Shown in pieces: positions 2,172 to 16,379 of a stretch of DNA of 64,000 nt. Position 1 is the first letter of the stretch. Each line of letters begins with the position of its first letter. Location: NCBI RefSeq assembly GCF_029338395.1, contig NZ_CP119809.1, positions 2,170,001 through 2,234,000 of the forward strand. The letters are read 5' to 3'. Position numbers and translations under genes: made by a program. The notes below the pieces were generated by a model that was not told the DNA's origin, ran no database searches, and saw only the letters and a list, made by a program, of their open reading frames with translations. The stretch is from Halorussus caseinilyticus (lineage in GTDB: Archaea; Halobacteriota; Halobacteria; Halobacteriales; Haladaptataceae).

Positions 2172-2346
2172 ACTCTCACCAACGGAGCCTTGATGTAAAT
2201 CTCTAATCCGTAATCCGATTCACTAACCAGCGAGACCACTTTCACTCCGGTTGGAGGACCTTCATGGCAGTTGGCTACAAAGTGCAGCTCAGCAGAGTCA
2301 CGTAAGAGAAAGACTCTACAAAATCCCCCGCAGAGGACTCATCACT

Positions 2347-2796
2347 ATGTCATTCCGAAACAACCGAACTAGCTCGTTAAACGCGAAACGCCGGAGCGAA
2401 TACCGACTGTTCATCTCTCACTCATGGAGTTACAGCAATGAGTACGAACGGATGGTCGACCTTTTGGACGACGCGAATTATTTCGAGTACAAGAACTATA
2501 GCATTCCTTCAGAGAAGGAAATTGACGCTGACACCGACAAGGAATTAGCAGAAGCACTTAGAGAAGGGCAAATTAAACCGTCATCTGTCGTCGTGGTACT
2601 CGCTGGGTTGTACTCAACGTATAGCGACTGGATTGGGAAGGAGATACGAATTGCAGAACAGGAAAATAAACCCATCTTGGGGGTGGAGCCATGGGGAAGC
2701 GACCGCACCTCCGACTACGTTGAACGTCATGCAGACAAAATGGTGGGATGGAACACCAGTTCCGTTGTCGAAGGGGTTCGAGACTTGGCTCCATGA
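2347..2796 (+). CDS. TIR-like (MTH538/ThsB type) domain protein
   Basis: A 149-residue single-domain protein. The core is YRLFISHSWSYSNEYERMVDLL (residues 19-40), then SSVVVVLAGLYSTYSDWIGKEI (79-100) and NKPILGVEPWG. The Glu at position 99, within W-x3-E, matches the catalytic Glu position of NAD-cleaving TIR domains, so activity is plausible. This subtype is the TIR-like family that includes the Thoeris sensor ThsB, which makes signalling nucleotides from NAD; which role applies here is unknown. The ATG at 2347 starts the recognisable protein. The stop overlaps the start of the membrane protein gene, so the two are co-translated. Confidence 0.82.
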   Translation: MSFRNNRTSSLNAKRRSEYRLFISHSWSYSNEYERMVDLLDDANYFEYKNYSIPSEKEIDADTDKELAEALREGQIKPSSVVVVLAGLYSTYSDWIGKEIRIAEQENKPILGVEPWGSDRTSDYVERHADKMVGWNTSSVVEGVRDLAP

Positions 2797-3401
2797 ACGA
2801 CGAGGAGAGCGAAAGTTCAAACAACACTGGCGAGGCTGTCGGCCAGAATCCTGAGCTTGAGCAATGGAAGTTCTACGGCCAATCCACTCACCAGGTGAGC
2901 AACCGTCGACTCAAGAACAATCGCTTCTATTTGCGCCTTCTAATCGCGCTACTAGGTGTTGCTGGTATCGGGGCGAAATTGGGATACGTAACTCCTGTCG
3001 GAATCATGTTTATCGGTGCTATCGGTCTTCCTTTCTGCGTTCTTTGGACGTTCCATATCCTCTCGTATAAGCAACTGAATAGCGGGAAATACCGAGTTCT
3101 GTGGGAAATCGCTGATAACCTCCCGTATGACCCGTTCAAAATGGAATGGGAGCGCCTCAAAGAAGGCGAGAAACCAGACGTCTACATTAAACATACTACT
3201 GTCGAGGTCTGGTGGCCGCGCGTGTTTGGGTTCTTCTACGCCGTGTTGTTCGTTTACGGAGCACTCTCTCTACTGAAGATGCTGGATTTCTATTGGTGGG
3301 CTGTTGGTCTCCTCGCCGCTATCTGGGGAGTCTATGCATTCTTCGTAATTCGGGGTGAAAGCCCGACGCAGAAGTACTGGGATTACACCGGAGAAGAGTA
3401 G
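2793..3401 (+). CDS. RipA-type small membrane protein paired with TIR
   Basis: 202 residues. Two membrane segments near residues 46-90 (LRLLIALLGVAGIGAKLGY, then PVGIMFIGAIGLPFCVLW) are followed by a cytoplasmic block with SYKQLNSGKYRVLWEI, LPYDPFKMEWERL and two further membrane segments. The LNSGKxxVLxEIxxxLPxxPxxxEWE pattern is what I know from the RipA-like octameric membrane protein family often found in conflict loci. It starts in an ATGA overlap with the TIR gene. By analogy it could be the membrane effector triggered by a TIR-made signal; that is inference. Confidence 0.65.
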   Translation: MNDEESESSNNTGEAVGQNPELEQWKFYGQSTHQVSNRRLKNNRFYLRLLIALLGVAGIGAKLGYVTPVGIMFIGAIGLPFCVLWTFHILSYKQLNSGKYRVLWEIADNLPYDPFKMEWERLKEGEKPDVYIKHTTVEVWWPRVFGFFYAVLFVYGALSLLKMLDFYWWAVGLLAAIWGVYAFFVIRGESPTQKYWDYTGEE

Positions 3402-3411
3402 AGAGTGAAGA

Positions 3412-4233
3412 TTAGCCTGTGTGGTCTACAATCGCCCCCACGATTGAATTCTGTCGCCATCCAACCGTCTCAACTGCTGCCTCTTCCACCACATTTGGTG
3501 TCTGTTTCGCTCCATGCGGGCGAATTCCGACGATTGGTTTATTGAATTCGTCCGCTAGCTCAATCTCGTTCTGAATCCATTCCCTGTGGGCACTATACAT
3601 CCCTGCAAGCACGAGGACAACGGAAGTCGTCCGAATTTGGTCTCGGAGTCGAGCACGAAGATGGACATCATTTACCGTATCAAGCGGGTCGGTCAACGGA
3701 ACGCTATGGTCCTGCCATTCTAGTTCGTCGAAATCATCGAGGAATTCGACTACTCGCTCGTAATCGTCGTTATAGTCCCAAGCATGGCTGATGAACACGT
3801 TGTACTGTCGATTCTCGGGACGAGGTCGCTGTTGAATACCGCCAGTACTGCCCGCGCTTTTGCTCGACTCAGAACCGAGGAGTTGGTTAAGGATATCCCA
3901 GAGTATCTTAACTACGACAGCACCTCCAGCGAGAACGAGAATGCCGAGAACGTCCCCTGCGACCTCATCTTTGCTTTCTATAAACCGCTTGAGAAGCTCG
4001 TAGCGCGTCACAAAATAGACATTCGTGTTTCCGGGTTCCCAAATTGCGATATCATTTGAACTCGCCCAGCTCTGATGATGCACTCGGACGCCTGGAAGAA
4101 CATCCGTATGAGCATCGAAATCATACGGGATTGGCGGGACTTCATCCTGTTGAACATATTCAAGAGAGTTGTTATAGCGGACATTGTGGCGTATCTCTTG
4201 CCAAGTTCGTCCTGAGCGGTCCGGCAAATCCAT
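3412..4233 (-). CDS. membrane-linked TIR-like protein with novel N-terminal region
   Basis: 273 residues. Residues 1-90 are an unrecognised polar region (WQEIRHNVRYNN; IAIWEPGNTNVYFVTRYELL). One hydrophobic helix follows at about 94-116 (DVLGILVLAGGAVVVKILWDI), then a Ser/Gly linker and a C-terminal TIR-like domain (YNVFISHAWDYNDDYERVVEFL from 144; EWIQNEIELADEFNKPIVGI). The catalytic-position Glu is 223. It is convergent with the TIR/RipA pair and the two TIR domains are clearly related, but the architecture differs. It may use the N-terminal region as sensor or anchor. A TATA box 27 nt upstream suggests leaderless expression. Confidence 0.78.
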   Translation of the reverse strand: MDLPDRSGRTWQEIRHNVRYNNSLEYVQQDEVPPIPYDFDAHTDVLPGVRVHHQSWASSNDIAIWEPGNTNVYFVTRYELLKRFIESKDEVAGDVLGILVLAGGAVVVKILWDILNQLLGSESSKSAGSTGGIQQRPRPENRQYNVFISHAWDYNDDYERVVEFLDDFDELEWQDHSVPLTDPLDTVNDVHLRARLRDQIRTTSVVLVLAGMYSAHREWIQNEIELADEFNKPIVGIRPHGAKQTPNVVEEAAVETVGWRQNSIVGAIVDHTG

Positions 4234-4421: not shown

Positions 4422-5573
4422 ATGTCCGACCTGAGTAAACTGCGGGAAATGGTGGAAGAAGAGGCTGAGCGGAGAAGACAGCTTCGTGAACAGATTAGTT
4501 TTGAGGAGTGCTCGGAAATAAAACTCGCAGGAGAACTATTTCGAGAGAAAGGTATCGAAGAGGTAGCTAACGAACTCGGACAGTCTCTCGATGAGACAAG
4601 GAATCTGATAAAAAGATATGCTGTACTGGTGAACTCCCCAACTGAGAATGTTCCCGCTATGGCAATGCTACGGGGAGTCAAGTATTACGGCGGGCAAGTT
4701 TCGCTCGAGGAGTTATCCGAAGAAGCTGACTCGCGTGAAGAAGTTGAAGAAGAGATTCGGGATTTTGTCGCCGTTACTCTCGACGAAAATGACATTGAGA
4801 GTATCGAAGTTGACTCCGTCGAAATTCCCGAAGATGCGGTCTATCCCGAGATAATGACTGAGACAGTTCGAAAAGTGCAACAATCCCTGTCATCCATCTC
4901 ACCGCCACCAGCACTCTACACTGGGCTCGCTGATGTCTCTGCTCGCATTTCGGAGACTGTCACCAATCTTCAGCCAGCGTTTGAATCCTTGTCCAGAGCG
5001 ATTTCTCGAATTCTCCCCGAGATTACACGTGCCATCGAAGGTGGTGTCTCGAATTTCGATAGTCCAAAGGATTACGACCCTGACAGAGTGAGATTTGATG
5101 AATCTGCTGAAGCTATTGCTGTTTCATCGTTAGAACGTTTCGTTGAACAGATTGAGCGGGAAGAAGTTCCAGAGCTCAGGTCGTACATCGAGCGTCTTGA
5201 ATTTGCGCTAGAGCACCACAGCGACGAGCAGTACGTCGCGCCTATTTTCGTCTTCATTAGCGTTCAAGACGGCCTCATGGATTGGCTCTGCCGACAAGAT
5301 GGCGTGACACCTGATGACCAGAGCCGCTTCGGTGATGATATTTACCGATGGGATACAAAGCGGGATACTCTTGCTCGACTCTATGAAGGATGGTATGACG
5401 TTGACACGGGGAAATTCATTCAGAACCTCGACGCGTTCTATCAGCACAGAAACGCGATAATGCATGGGGACCCATTGGCGTATTTCGACCGGAATATTGC
5501 TACGATTTCATTACTTTTCTTAGATGCTACTCTCTACACTGTCATTGAATACGCAGACCAGAATGTAGAGTAG
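4422..5573 (+). CDS. HEPN-motif protein (putative ribonuclease)
   Basis: 383 residues. The N-terminus is a charged coiled coil, then an HTH-like stretch (GIEEVANELGQSLDETRNLIKRYAV, about residues 46-70). A long acidic/helical middle follows, and a C-terminal helical domain has FYQHRNAIMHGDP. The R343-x4-H348 (RNxxxH) signature is that of HEPN ribonucleases, with helices on both sides (FVFISVQDGLMDWL upstream; ISLLFLDATLYTVIEYA downstream). HEPN proteins commonly cleave RNA in toxin-antitoxin and abortive systems. No MNT-type partner is adjacent, so this could be a stand-alone sensor-effector. The HEPN call rests on motif and position only. ATG follows a TATA-like ttactatac by about 20 nt. Confidence 0.6.
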   Translation: MSDLSKLREMVEEEAERRRQLREQISFEECSEIKLAGELFREKGIEEVANELGQSLDETRNLIKRYAVLVNSPTENVPAMAMLRGVKYYGGQVSLEELSEEADSREEVEEEIRDFVAVTLDENDIESIEVDSVEIPEDAVYPEIMTETVRKVQQSLSSISPPPALYTGLADVSARISETVTNLQPAFESLSRAISRILPEITRAIEGGVSNFDSPKDYDPDRVRFDESAEAIAVSSLERFVEQIEREEVPELRSYIERLEFALEHHSDEQYVAPIFVFISVQDGLMDWLCRQDGVTPDDQSRFGDDIYRWDTKRDTLARLYEGWYDVDTGKFIQNLDAFYQHRNAIMHGDPLAYFDRNIATISLLFLDATLYTVIEYADQNVE

Positions 5574-5612: not shown

Positions 5613-6338
5613 TCAACCAACATTCGTACTCAATTTTTGTACCTCTTCGGGATTCACTCGTAATCGTTCGAGGTGTCGACGGTTTTTGACATTCTCTGCT
5701 AGCGAGAGTAGTTCTCTCCCCCGGAGCTCAAGCCACGTCGTCCCAAAATGACCTCGCTCTTCCTCGGTTGCAGGTATCCAATAGCAATCTCCAATGTACT
5801 CCTTGCTCCCGTTGGAAGCGAACGCAAGCGCATTCGTCTCTTCTGGCAATGAGGTCAACGCTTCCTGAGCAGCAATCAGATACTTGGTCCCCAATGCGAC
5901 GAAGACCAAGTCGTAGCCTTCGGCAAAGATTTGCCGGAGGTCCTGAGGGATATTTTTCTCCCGGCCAACAGCCGCTACTAACTCGTTGTTGGTCATCGTA
6001 TCTACGTCGAGGTTCATCCGTTCTGCCCGTTGACGAACCTGCTCAATCTCGCTAAACGTACACTCGTAGGACGGAATCTCTGTCCCAGCAGAGAGAACAC
6101 CAAACCCGGCAGAGATGATACGCCAATCGATATCGGCAACCTCTGAAAGCTGTTTTACTGCAGATTTGATATTTTCGTGCTCGCGTCCCGTGTACATCTC
6201 AGCCGCCGATGTCACAGCATCAGGATACTCTCTCAGTAACTCTGTCCGCCCCCGTGAGTCTATCTCTTCGGGACCGATAACGGCATCAAATCGCTTCGTT
6301 CCGGAACAAGGTGAGATAACGAGCACATCCAATCCCAT
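5613..6338 (-). CDS. DUF6884/YaaA-like protein
   Basis: 241 residues. It opens with LDVLVISPCSGTKRFDAV, a PCSxTK motif shared with DUF6884, YaaA/DUF328 and the PCSATKP block of archaeosine synthase. Further on are AEMYTGREHENI, WRIISAGFGVLSAGTEIPSYE, DLRQIFAEGYDLVFVALGTKYL and WLELRGRELL. Members of this broad superfamily are linked to 7-deazapurine chemistry or DNA binding; the reaction here is unknown. It is divergent from the GIY-YIG-like gene across an 83-bp promoter region, so co-regulation is likely. Fragments resembling its DLRQIFA region recur at 16.3 kb and weakly at 11.6 kb. Confidence 0.6.
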   Translation of the reverse strand: MGLDVLVISPCSGTKRFDAVIGPEEIDSRGRTELLREYPDAVTSAAEMYTGREHENIKSAVKQLSEVADIDWRIISAGFGVLSAGTEIPSYECTFSEIEQVRQRAERMNLDVDTMTNNELVAAVGREKNIPQDLRQIFAEGYDLVFVALGTKYLIAAQEALTSLPEETNALAFASNGSKEYIGDCYWIPATEEERGHFGTTWLELRGRELLSLAENVKNRRHLERLRVNPEEVQKLSTNVG

Positions 6339-6421
6339 CGGTGTATTCTTGTTCTGAATGACTACTCAGAGAACGAAACTCTTTGTGGACGTACCGGAGT
6401 AGCATATGCTAAGAGACAACG

Positions 6422-7132
6422 ATGGCACGACGTGAGGATATTAACCGGCTCTATGAACTCCTTGACGAGCTAGAGCAGACAGTCGGCGGGAAACAGAAGC
6501 TCAAGGACTGCACCGGCTACATGGACTGGCCCGACCGAGGCGTCTACTTCTTTTTTGCATCAGACGAGCGCCGCAACGGCGACGACCAACTTCGAATTAC
6601 TCGCATCGGGACTCACGCTGTTTCCGAAGGAAGCAGTACCTCACTCTGGGACCGACTCAGAACGCATCGCGGAGCAAAGCGGGGAACCTACGAAGGTGGC
6701 GGGAACCATCGAGGCTCCGTCTTCCGGAAACGAGTCGGTGAGGCATTCGTCGAACGTGACGACCGACACGATGAGTATCCGCATTGGGGCGAGGGGTCAA
6801 GTGCAAAACGAGAGCGCCGACTCGATGAACTTGAGATGGAGCGGCGAGTAAGCGACTATCTCCGGGACCTGCCGTTCCTCTGGCTAAACGTGGATGACGA
6901 ACCAAGCGCCGAGAGCCAACGGGCCTACATCGAGCGAAACTCGATTGCACTCCTCAGTAACTACCAGCGAAAGGCCGTTGATGCTAGTTCAGATGACTGG
7001 CTGGGCAATCATAGTCGAAGCAAGAAAATCCGCGAATCCGGACTATGGAACGTGAACCACGTCGATGAAGACTATGACTCAGAGTTCCTCAACCGACTCG
7101 AAGAACAGATAGAATCGACATCCCCTGTCTGA
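6422..7132 (+). CDS. GIY-YIG-like nuclease family protein
   Basis: 236 residues. The GIY-YIG pattern is visible as DRGVYFFF (residues 38-45), RITRIGTHAV (58-67) and SLWDRLRTHRG (74-84). GGGNHRGSVFRKRVG follows, and later YIERNSIALLSNY supplies a candidate catalytic Glu. The tail SGLWNVNHVDEDYD is typical of this conserved group. I infer a GIY-YIG endonuclease fold; sequence outside the motif is specific to this family, and no target is known. It sits 53 nt before the DUF262-HNH gene and divergent from the DUF6884-like gene, which suggests a three-gene module. Confidence 0.55.
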   Translation: MARREDINRLYELLDELEQTVGGKQKLKDCTGYMDWPDRGVYFFFASDERRNGDDQLRITRIGTHAVSEGSSTSLWDRLRTHRGAKRGTYEGGGNHRGSVFRKRVGEAFVERDDRHDEYPHWGEGSSAKRERRLDELEMERRVSDYLRDLPFLWLNVDDEPSAESQRAYIERNSIALLSNYQRKAVDASSDDWLGNHSRSKKIRESGLWNVNHVDEDYDSEFLNRLEEQIESTSPV

Positions 7133-7147
7133 GAATCGACCGACAGG

Positions 7148-7160
7148 ACTACTATTATAA
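7148..7160 (+). promoter_or_regulatory. TATA box for the DUF262-HNH gene
   Basis: TACTATTATAACG lies about 30 nt before the ATG at 7185. This gives the nuclease gene its own leaderless promoter despite the short gap from the upstream gene. Confidence 0.45.
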
Positions 7161-7184
7161 CGGTAATGTCTGTACAGCTATAAC

Positions 7185-8573
7185 ATGGCAATCTACGTCG
7201 ATGACCCTCTCAATTCGAACGACGAAGACTGGGACATTAGCAAGTTCCACAGCGATAGCGAATACTTCGTTAAGCGACCACCCTACCAGCGAAAGACCGT
7301 CTGGGATACTGGAAAGAAGAAGGAACTAATCGATAGCTTCGTTCGCCAACTCTACGTCCCACCTGTTGTAATCCGACAAGTCGTCCTCGACGGTAACGAC
7401 CTCCGTCTGGAAGTCGTCGACGGCCAACAGCGAATCACCGCGATTCAAGAATTCTTCGAGGACGAATTTGCTCTCCCCGATAGCCCCGAACTCCGCGAAC
7501 TCAACCCGGAACACGAGATTGCTGGGAAACGATACTCCGAACTTAGCGAGGACGTCCAGGAGTATATCGACTCTCAGTGTTCGCTCAAAGTCATCAAGCT
7601 GCGCGGCATCGACGACCCCGACGACAAGCGCCATCAGGAATTAGCGACCAAGGTCTTCTGGCGACTCCAGCAGGGCGAACACCTAACCAACATCGAGAAG
7701 AATCACAGTAAGACCTACAGCCCCGTTCGGAACTTCATCGTTCAAACAGCCGACGACATCAGCTTCGACCGAGAGAACTACGAAAGCCGCGACGACAACC
7801 CGAACCGCCACGAGTTCTTCACTCTTCTCGCTCGGAACAACGACCGACTCCAGCAACTCTCACTCCTCGCCCGCTTCATCCTGATTGAGATTGATGAAGG
7901 GGCGACGAAAGTCACCGGGAAAGAGGTCACCAAACTATTCGACTGCAAGCGAGAGGGATTCACCGTCCACGAGGACTTAGAGGAATTCAAACAACGCGAC
8001 GAGATTCAGCGCGTTCAGCGGATGCTCGACCTCCTCACGGAACTCTACCGCGATACCGACCTGAAGAACGGGAACGGAGAGATAGAGTTCCTAAACAAGG
8101 AGTACTTCATCCTCAGCCTGTATTCGCTCATCCGCGAGTTGGAGTTTGGAGATTACAACTTCGGACGAGACAACTACGACGAGGTTCGGGACTTCACCGA
8201 GGAGTGGTTCAAGCGGTTCGAAGTTGAGGATACAGACGACAGCGAAATGCTCCAATTCAAGGAGGCTCGCCAGCAGAACCGAGGAGCAGTCAACAAGCGA
8301 CACTACATCCTCGAAAACGCCTTCTGGGAGACAGAACCCGATATTCAAGAAACCGACAGTCAACGAGCATTCTCCCGAGCGCAGCGAATTAAGCTCTTCA
8401 TCGAGAGCGACCGCATCTGCGAGATGTGCATAGAAGAAGGGAAAACCGAAGAGGAGGCGAAAGTCTCGTGGAGCAATTGGGACGCCGACCACATCGAGGA
8501 ACATTCACAGGGCGGCCAGACTGTTCTCGAAAACGCACGGGTACTCTGCCCCCATCATAACCGGAGTCGATAG
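7185..8573 (+). CDS. DUF262-HNH (GmrSD-like) endonuclease
   Basis: 462 residues. The N-terminal DUF262 (ParB-like) domain has YQRKTVW at 34-40 and the DGQQR nucleotide-hydrolase motif at 79-83. A long helical middle follows. The C-terminal HNH domain has a C412/C415 knuckle, DADH at 433-436, EN at 449-450 and a CPHHN ending. DUF262 plus HNH is the layout of GmrSD-type (type IV) modification-dependent restriction and of several other antiphage proteins: the first domain senses or hydrolyses NTP and the second cuts DNA. All key residues are present. It probably acts with the two genes upstream. Confidence 0.85.
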   Translation: MAIYVDDPLNSNDEDWDISKFHSDSEYFVKRPPYQRKTVWDTGKKKELIDSFVRQLYVPPVVIRQVVLDGNDLRLEVVDGQQRITAIQEFFEDEFALPDSPELRELNPEHEIAGKRYSELSEDVQEYIDSQCSLKVIKLRGIDDPDDKRHQELATKVFWRLQQGEHLTNIEKNHSKTYSPVRNFIVQTADDISFDRENYESRDDNPNRHEFFTLLARNNDRLQQLSLLARFILIEIDEGATKVTGKEVTKLFDCKREGFTVHEDLEEFKQRDEIQRVQRMLDLLTELYRDTDLKNGNGEIEFLNKEYFILSLYSLIRELEFGDYNFGRDNYDEVRDFTEEWFKRFEVEDTDDSEMLQFKEARQQNRGAVNKRHYILENAFWETEPDIQETDSQRAFSRAQRIKLFIESDRICEMCIEEGKTEEEAKVSWSNWDADHIEEHSQGGQTVLENARVLCPHHNRSR

Positions 8574-8940: not shown

Positions 8941-9450
8941 ATGACAGAGACGTCTATGGACAGCCCCAGCGACGAACGGGACTTCCAAACGCTTCACGAG
9001 AATACGACCCGAGCAGAACTCTTCCCCGCCAAACAGCACAAAGAGGAATGGTGGGAAGAAGCCGAACACGAAGGGTCCAGCCTCAGCCGGTACCTCTACG
9101 ACCTGATTCAGGAAGCCCGGATGTATCGGGACAGCGGCGCACCCTTCATCCAGACGCAGGACCAGACGGTCAAGCAACTCCAGAACAAAATCGATGACCT
9201 CCAAACGCAACTCGAAGAGGCTCAGCAAGGCGGCGGTGGTCGAACTCACCTCAGTATTGATGACCTCGTTACGCGCGTTCTCGACCAACAGTACCAGTCA
9301 CTAGACGAACTCATAGAGCGTGTCTCTGCTAGTGATGATGTCACCCAACACCTCCAACGACAAATCGAGAACCGGCTGTACGCCTTAGCCGAGAATGGGC
9401 AGGTTGAATTCCAGCGTGGGCACGGCTGGCGGCTCAAGGAGGGGAACTAA
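8941..9450 (+). CDS. RHH/coiled-coil protein in operon with integrase
   Basis: 169 residues. An RHH-like block (residues about 20-60) precedes a coiled coil (QTVKQLQNKIDDLQTQLEEA) and a C-terminal winged-helix-like part (LYALAENGQVEFQRGHGWRL). The stop at 9448-9450 is one base before the integrase ATG, and the integrase Shine-Dalgarno AAGGAGGGG lies inside this gene's end, so the two are co-expressed. It likely regulates or assists recombination. A TATA-like tctttaaac lies about 35 nt upstream. Confidence 0.65.
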   Translation: MTETSMDSPSDERDFQTLHENTTRAELFPAKQHKEEWWEEAEHEGSSLSRYLYDLIQEARMYRDSGAPFIQTQDQTVKQLQNKIDDLQTQLEEAQQGGGGRTHLSIDDLVTRVLDQQYQSLDELIERVSASDDVTQHLQRQIENRLYALAENGQVEFQRGHGWRLKEGN

Positions 9451-9451
9451 C

Positions 9452-10387
9452 ATGGGAGCCGAACCCGGTTCATCGAAAATCTATGAGAATAAGCACGACG
9501 AGGTCAACTACTTCATCACCCGGAAGAAGGCAACAGACCGCAGTACGAGAACACTCAACTCGTACAGCCGGGTTCTCCGTGAGTTCTATCACGACCAATT
9601 CCCAGACCTCAATCCCGACGAAATCAAAACAGGACACGTCGAGAATTACGTAATCGCCTTAGACGAACGAGGTGTCTCGCAGAACTCGAAAAAGAAGTAT
9701 CTCGAAGTCCTCTCCAGCTTCTACAATTATATGCTAAAACGGGACGAGTTCGAGTCTATCACGAGTAACCCCTCTGCGGTCGTGATGGAGGAGATATCTC
9801 GAGTTCGCCCTGACCGACCGGACTGTGCGACGTGGGAGAATGCCTGTAAACTCATCCATGCCATTCCAGACCCACGAGACAAAACTGTAGCCATCATCTT
9901 AGCGAAAACGGGACCCCGTCTCCTCGAAGCTCTCTCAATCGAAGAGGACGACGTAGACTTAGAGAAGGGATTCATCCGACTCCGAGAACGCAAAGGCGGA
10001 GGTCAGACTGTAGTACCCATTGACGACGAGACAATCTACGCTATCAAACGCTATCAGTTCATCAACGTCGATTCCGATTCTCCGTATCTCTTCACGAGCA
10101 ATCTGGGAGGACGTCTCAGTAAGGAACGAATTCGACGAGAGGTGAAAGCCGCCGCCGACCGCGCCGGCGTCGCCCCCAAGGAGGAACGACGATTCGAGAA
10201 GAAGTTCACACCTCACACCTTCCGAACCGTCTTCACGACCCTGATGCGCAAGCAGGGGATGAAGCCGTACATTCTGAAATACATCCGTGGGGACGCCAAG
10301 ACCGAGACGATGGATATCTACACCAGGGTAGACCGGGATGATGCGAAAGAAGAGTACCTGAACTGCATCAAAGAAATCGGGTTGTAG
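9452..10387 (+). CDS. tyrosine recombinase (integrase)
   Basis: 311 residues with an N-terminal SAM-like core-binding domain (about 15-105) and a C-terminal catalytic domain. Catalytic residues seen are R156 (TGPRLLEAL), K181 (RERKGGG), H255-x2-R258 (PHTFR) and the nucleophile Y290 (MDIYTRV). The usual second His is D281 (RGDAKTET), a substitution I believe is frequent in haloarchaeal integrases. It is the likely agent of integration at the flanking 13-bp repeats. The ATG at 9452 directly follows the upstream stop; a few extra upstream codons in frame belong to the overlapping gene. Confidence 0.9.
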   Translation: MGAEPGSSKIYENKHDEVNYFITRKKATDRSTRTLNSYSRVLREFYHDQFPDLNPDEIKTGHVENYVIALDERGVSQNSKKKYLEVLSSFYNYMLKRDEFESITSNPSAVVMEEISRVRPDRPDCATWENACKLIHAIPDPRDKTVAIILAKTGPRLLEALSIEEDDVDLEKGFIRLRERKGGGQTVVPIDDETIYAIKRYQFINVDSDSPYLFTSNLGGRLSKERIRREVKAAADRAGVAPKEERRFEKKFTPHTFRTVFTTLMRKQGMKPYILKYIRGDAKTETMDIYTRVDRDDAKEEYLNCIKEIGL

Positions 10388-16299: not shown

Positions 16300-16379
16300 C
16301 CTCTGGCAAAGATTTGCCGTAGGTCTTCATCAGTCGTCTTCTCACGCAGTCCCCACAACACTCGATAGAGATGATTCAT
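16300..16379 (-). pseudogene. fragment of a DUF6884-like gene
   Basis: The minus strand encodes GLREKTTDEDLRQIFARGTGL. The intact gene at 5613-6338 has VGREKNIPQDLRQIFAEGYDL. Eleven or so of 21 residues agree, and at DNA level TGGCAAAGATTTGCCGTAGG matches the intact gene nearly base for base. On either side the similarity stops and the frame continues as unrelated sequence, so this is a remnant of a deleted second copy. Confidence 0.5.

Follow-up and report, generated by a model that had tools for sequence, protein, structure and literature searches.

A DpdC-related gene paired with a PDC-M57B-family gene in haloarchaea: a candidate two-gene restriction system for modified DNA

The window analysed here is a stretch of 64,000 nucleotides from Halorussus caseinilyticus (contig NZ_CP119809.1), and it holds, at about 2-24 kb, a low-GC island (GC about 50% versus 65-70%) with a tyrosine integrase inside; no convincing direct repeats bounding the island were found. 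As an earlier note made from the sequence alone had described, three intact open reading frames lie here around one short divergent promoter. Gene A (5613-6338, minus strand) encodes a 241-aa protein of the YaaA/DUF6884 superfamily, from a clade that is sister to DpdC; gene B (6422-7132, plus strand) encodes a 236-aa protein of the PDC-M57B family, a GIY-YIG-like putative nuclease; and gene C (7185-8573, plus strand) encodes a 462-aa nuclease with DUF262 (GmrSD_N) and HNH domains. A and B are divergent, with 83 bp between their starts, and the intergenic region that separates them (6339-6421) is the region of their shared promoter. Downstream of this slot lies an integrase-bearing mobile module, which comprises a 169-aa coiled-coil ORF that recurs beside A-B loci (8941-9450, plus strand) and a tyrosine integrase ORF (9395-10387, plus strand, with a possible start at 9452; Pfam Phage_integrase E=1.1e-21) that is found again in loci L031, L033, L037-L039 and L045.

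A, B and C are real genes under purifying selection: dN/dS is 0.06 for C and lies at 0.17-0.32 for A and B. Four other A-B loci (L135, L137, L138 and L139) have spacers 81-92% identical to the one in the window, while dS of A and B, measured against two of these four, is 0.32-0.52; taken with the dN/dS values, this indicates selection on the pair and on the promoter region that it shares.

Other features of the island were observed alongside. Two ThsB-like TIR genes surround a PF24838 "8xMP" membrane protein at 2251-4233, and the same TIR-8xMP-TIR trio, 81-85% identical, adjoins B in locus L078; it looks like a TIR-plus-membrane-effector defence cassette. A 383-aa protein encoded at 4422-5573 has a HEPN-like C-terminal stretch (HRNAIMHG; PADLOC RTasHEPN E=0.0007), and 47 nt at 16300-16346 are 72% identical to the coding sequence of A at 5917-5963 and may be what is left of another A copy.

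Gene C had been read as a DUF262-HNH nuclease with intact DGQQR and HNH residues, and both its motifs, including V-D-G-Q-Q-R, and its Pfam matches (GmrSD_N PF03235, E=1.4e-18; HNH PF01844, C-terminal, E=1.1e-05) bear this out. C, and C only, resembles GmrSD and BrxU in joining a DUF262 domain with DGQQR to a C-terminal HNH; it differs in that this HNH is PF01844, with no C-terminal DUF1524 found by Pfam. The grouping of all three genes into one cassette did not survive comparison, since A-B recurs and C does not. C is present in 8 of 391 haloarchaeal genomes and beside B in only 3 of them; it adjoins B only in the window, L031, L033/L137 and, from a second genome collection, L134, and four further homologues are located away from B. 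Its slot is elsewhere taken by GmrSD or other genes, such as a DUF262-DUF1524-type GmrSD-like protein in L034, L038 and L039 (DUF1524 read from sequence). In L031 and L033, moreover, identity to the window copy is 96-99% for C, against 68-83% for A and 85-86% for B. Although C starts about 50-65 bp past B wherever both occur, a three-gene system in which A, B and C act together is therefore extremely unlikely: C is a Type IV-like nuclease in its own right, exchangeable cargo of an integrase-linked slot, and stands outside the A-B unit.

B matches PADLOC's PDC-M57B over its full length (residues 1-233 of 236; E=1.3e-77), and searches of Pfam and NCBIfam returned no match. PDC-M57B is an unpublished candidate defence family of PADLOC; the PDC families derive from a guilt-by-embedding screen and are computational candidates, with validation pending for most (PMC12988326). 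Of 391 haloarchaeal genomes, 98 carry B; a wider scan, through 84,980 species genomes, yielded 175 relatives across Archaea and Bacteria, some of them in Chloroflexota, Bacillota, Pseudomonadota, Planctomycetota and Thermoplasmatota. In an Anaerolineae locus (L190, 7143-8699) an unrelated N-terminal domain is fused to B, and in locus L178 (6940-7947) B is divergent from an Mrr_cat restriction endonuclease.

The earlier note placed B among GIY-YIG-like proteins, a weak claim, with which motif and strand/helix order agree and which profile comparison, Pfam, PDB search and Foldseek do not confirm. The GIY-YIG-like residues are G40-V-Y42, R61-I-G63 where YIG is expected, R78, H82 and E171; across the family G40-x-Y42, R61, R78 and H82 are invariant (63/63) and E171 nearly so (62/63), and the position of the YIG tyrosine is an arginine in all 63 members. 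The AlphaFold2 model (pLDDT 93.6) follows the strand-strand-helix...strand-helix order of the GIY-YIG core. HHalign of the B family against a GIY-YIG reference alignment, some rows of which are poor, gave a probability of at most about 4%, against 95.8% for the control (URI versus UvrC rows). Pfam GIY-YIG reached at best E=0.019, in one of the 63 members, and GIY-YIG was confirmed neither by a PDB sequence search with B nor by Foldseek against PDB and BFVD (E>1). The name GIY-YIG-like is used here as a weak assignment, drawn from motif and strand order.

Gene A carries the motifs CSGTK (the PCSxTK noticed earlier, read as P-C-S-G-T-K), YTG, SAGFG and PSYECTF. DUF6884 proteins have a YaaA-like fold and the family motifs CxxxK and LSAxxG, and one of them, YfjM, has been modelled to flip a base into the conserved site (PMC11701544). 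Against PADLOC's DpdC profile A gives E=1.9e-15 over 166 aa, scoring as high as a true haloarchaeal DpdC that adjoins DpdA (E=1.5e-13); its match to PDC-M57A is weak (E=0.0046), and that to Pfam DUF6884 (E=5.9e-05) falls short of Pfam's cut-off. The A family shares the superfamily motifs with E. coli YaaA (UPF0246/DUF328), but similarity is weak (family profile versus structure 5CAJ, E=0.036). The AlphaFold2 model of A has a pLDDT of 95.3; YaaA was absent, and no match was clear, among the 50 Foldseek matches listed. Structural checking of A and B thus yielded two high-pLDDT models, and no confirmation by Foldseek of a YaaA-like or a GIY-YIG fold; A is assigned to the superfamily by sequence profiles and by its tree.

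Maximum-likelihood analysis groups A with its B-paired relatives in a clade of their own (support 97/96), whose sister is haloarchaeal DpdC (97/97). This clade is separate both from short DUF6884 proteins and from the long partners found in bacteria, the placement of the latter being unsure because of long branches. With A as query, haloarchaea also yield about 33 long proteins, mostly about 970 aa, which in the loci examined are DpdA-DpdC fusions, and a set of proteins of about 250 aa; most of the more distant members of this set adjoin a separate DpdA in the loci examined. DpdC acts on 7-deazaguanine in DNA, hydrolysing dPreQ0 to dADG without excising the base (PMC12839542). The suggested membership of A in a superfamily tied to deazapurine chemistry is thus sustained by the PADLOC DpdC score and the tree, and the deazapurine link itself gains real support from the A-DpdC sisterhood and from two haloarchaeal loci in which B stands beside DpdA and DpdC.

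The linkage of A to B is genuine, and the pair recurs across genomes. In bacteria 18 of 19 B loci have a gene of the DUF6884/YaaA superfamily as a close partner: at 17 it is no more than 300 bp away, and at one, L198 from a Planctomycetota MAG, it is fused to B. A Deinococcus plasmid bears such a pair. Both IMG/VR relatives of B (two contigs) are fused to a DUF6884-superfamily domain, and fused A-B versions are represented by L198, L214 and L215. Among 97 haloarchaeal B loci, a DUF6884 relative lies within 300 bp in 31 and within 3 kb in 11 more, and 53 have none in the locus. DUF6884 elsewhere in the genome was not enriched in orphan-B genomes (P=0.87; 312 genomes, taken as G000-G311), and a trans-acting DUF6884 protein for orphan B was rejected on this ground. 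A is thus not obligate. Many partners of B are DUF6884 proteins of the short kind, for which no deazaguanine link is known, and the B tree requires at least 24 changes of partner state. Variations on the arrangement were also seen: in L037-L039 (for example L038, 8008-9138) A and B are separated by a gene for a protein of 376-394 aa that has a CxxC...CxxC region, and on plasmids of Haloarcula and Halorientalis (L132, L133, L250) B belongs to a conserved run of an ImmA/ArdC-like gene, B, an HNH endonuclease (in Haloarcula only), DUF6610 and, further on, DUF6884.

At two loci B directly adjoins, and is divergent from, genes of the Dpd system: a DpdA-DpdC fusion in Halorussus salinisoli (L140), and separate DpdA and DpdC genes in Natronorubrum halalkaliphilum (L149). 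Their B proteins nest independently beside A-paired Bs in the B tree (100/92 and 100/94), from which it appears that B has twice exchanged A and DpdA+DpdC. The genome of the window contains no DpdA, and no other dpd gene was found among the neighbours examined; none of the 17 A-B genomes has DpdA (2.4 expected, P=0.07), and genomes with both B and DpdA number 6, against 12.5 expected (P=0.014, phylogeny not controlled). Typical haloarchaeal dpd clusters (L115, 5805-11887; similarly L119, L120, L122 and L124-L129) contain DpdA with DpdC, often fused. Most of them also encode three further proteins that L140 and L149 lack: another TGT-like protein of 344 aa, one of 298 aa, and an ATPase of 385 aa that resembles BrxC/BrxD. 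These clusters are possibly a distinct archaeal Dpd subtype.

Our preferred reading, held tentatively and at somewhat less than an even chance, is that A and B are a modification-dependent, Type IV-like two-gene restriction pair, a variant of the candidate system PDC-M57, acting possibly against 7-deazaguanine viral DNA. Invading DNA would carry a modified base, most likely a 7-deazaguanine, which A would flip out, recognise and perhaps process; B, as a nuclease, would cut the DNA so recognised; and the outcome would be antiviral defence. We infer all three steps: reading by A, cleavage by B, and defence. Since the window genome has no DpdA, A has no known DpdA-made host substrate (dPreQ0), which points to incoming DNA as the target. 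Viral 7-deazaguanines are at hand: the haloarchaeal virus HVTV-1 carries about 30% of its G as dPreQ1 (PMC6884629), and all Druskaviridae have genes for the preQ0 pathway (PMC8651126). Together with the base flip modelled for YfjM and the logic of CMoRE, a proven Type IV enzyme that combines GIY-YIG with a modification sensor (PMC12923530), these points favour a division of labour in which A reads and B cuts. Its weak points are the nuclease fold of B, which the searches did not confirm, the orphan B genes, and the two loci beside DpdA and DpdC, where B would be self-destructive if all 7-deazaguanine DNA were cut, so that dADG would need to be exempt.

Three other readings share part of this evidence. 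A might excise or alter the flipped modified base, with B cutting at the resulting abasic or altered site: the conserved CxxxK and SAxxG site of YaaA/DUF6884 with its modelled base flip (PMC11701544) and the DpdC motifs kept in A would suit such a base-excision restriction, and base-excision restriction enzymes and antiviral glycosylases are already known (PMC10273834, PMC11078745), but DpdC itself hydrolyses its substrate with no base excision (PMC12839542) and no glycosylase homology was found, which leaves this reading improbable. We also consider it unlikely that the pair serves DNA repair, with A recognising a damaged nucleotide (an abasic site, a ribonucleotide or an oxidised base) and B incising the strand. 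B. subtilis YfjM was recovered with abasic and RNA-base lesions, YaaA is tied to DNA integrity, UvrC uses a GIY-YIG domain in repair, and orphan B genes are common in haloarchaea; yet the patchy distribution of B (98 of 391 genomes), its setting in a low-GC integrase island next to TIR genes and a GmrSD-like gene, its many partner changes and its pairing with DpdA and DpdC all speak for something other than repair. The position of B directly beside DpdA and DpdC in L140 and L149 could also suggest a restriction-modification-like arrangement, in which DNA without a 7-deazaguanine mark would be the target of B and the host would be shielded by DpdA/DpdC (or A). This is highly unlikely, because without DpdA, in the window genome as in the 17 A-B genomes checked, nothing is known that would install a protecting base in host DNA.

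The proposed Type IV-like A-B pair is not wholly new. The earlier note knew of no named system with this set, but A-B is a variant of PADLOC's PDC-M57 (PDC-M57A plus PDC-M57B): B is a full-length PDC-M57B, and A, in the partner position, belongs to the superfamily of PDC-M57A. It departs from that system in the length of A (241 aa versus about 140), in its divergent rather than operonic layout, in the DpdC-sister clade of A and in the weak match to PDC-M57A. To the Dpd system (DpdA-DpdK) it is tied by A, which is sister to haloarchaeal DpdC and has its motifs, and by the two other B loci with DpdA and DpdC; it differs in that the window genome lacks DpdA and the neighbours examined lack other dpd genes, and A, although it scores well against the DpdC profile, falls in a clade of its own beside DpdC. 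The likeness to CMoRE (PD-T4-3), in which GIY-YIG nuclease and modification-sensing domain go together, as A and B do in their fused versions, is one of proposed logic, with no relationship of sequence or fold found, the GIY-YIG identity of B being putative. In the open-access literature we found neither PDC-M57 nor a DUF6884 and GIY-YIG combination, nor any description of a DpdC-clade partner of B or of an exchange between A and DpdA+DpdC. A-B as a variant of a candidate system is already catalogued; the DpdC-clade partner and the exchange are new.

In haloarchaeal viruses and many phages 7-deazaguanines take the place of guanine and shield the DNA from restriction enzymes, and no host system that targets such DNA was found in the open-access literature. 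A, as a cousin of DpdC, suggests a system that recognises virus DNA with modified guanines. The stronger claim, that A-B is an immune system dedicated to 7-deazaguanine virus DNA, whose reader or first-step enzyme is a relative of DpdC and whose B partners with either that relative or DpdC, seems to us doubtful at present. Through the exchange of partners between A and DpdC, a candidate system that had no name becomes a proposal open to direct test, for which DNA of HVTV-1, and phage CAjan either carrying or lacking dpdA, are ready substrates.
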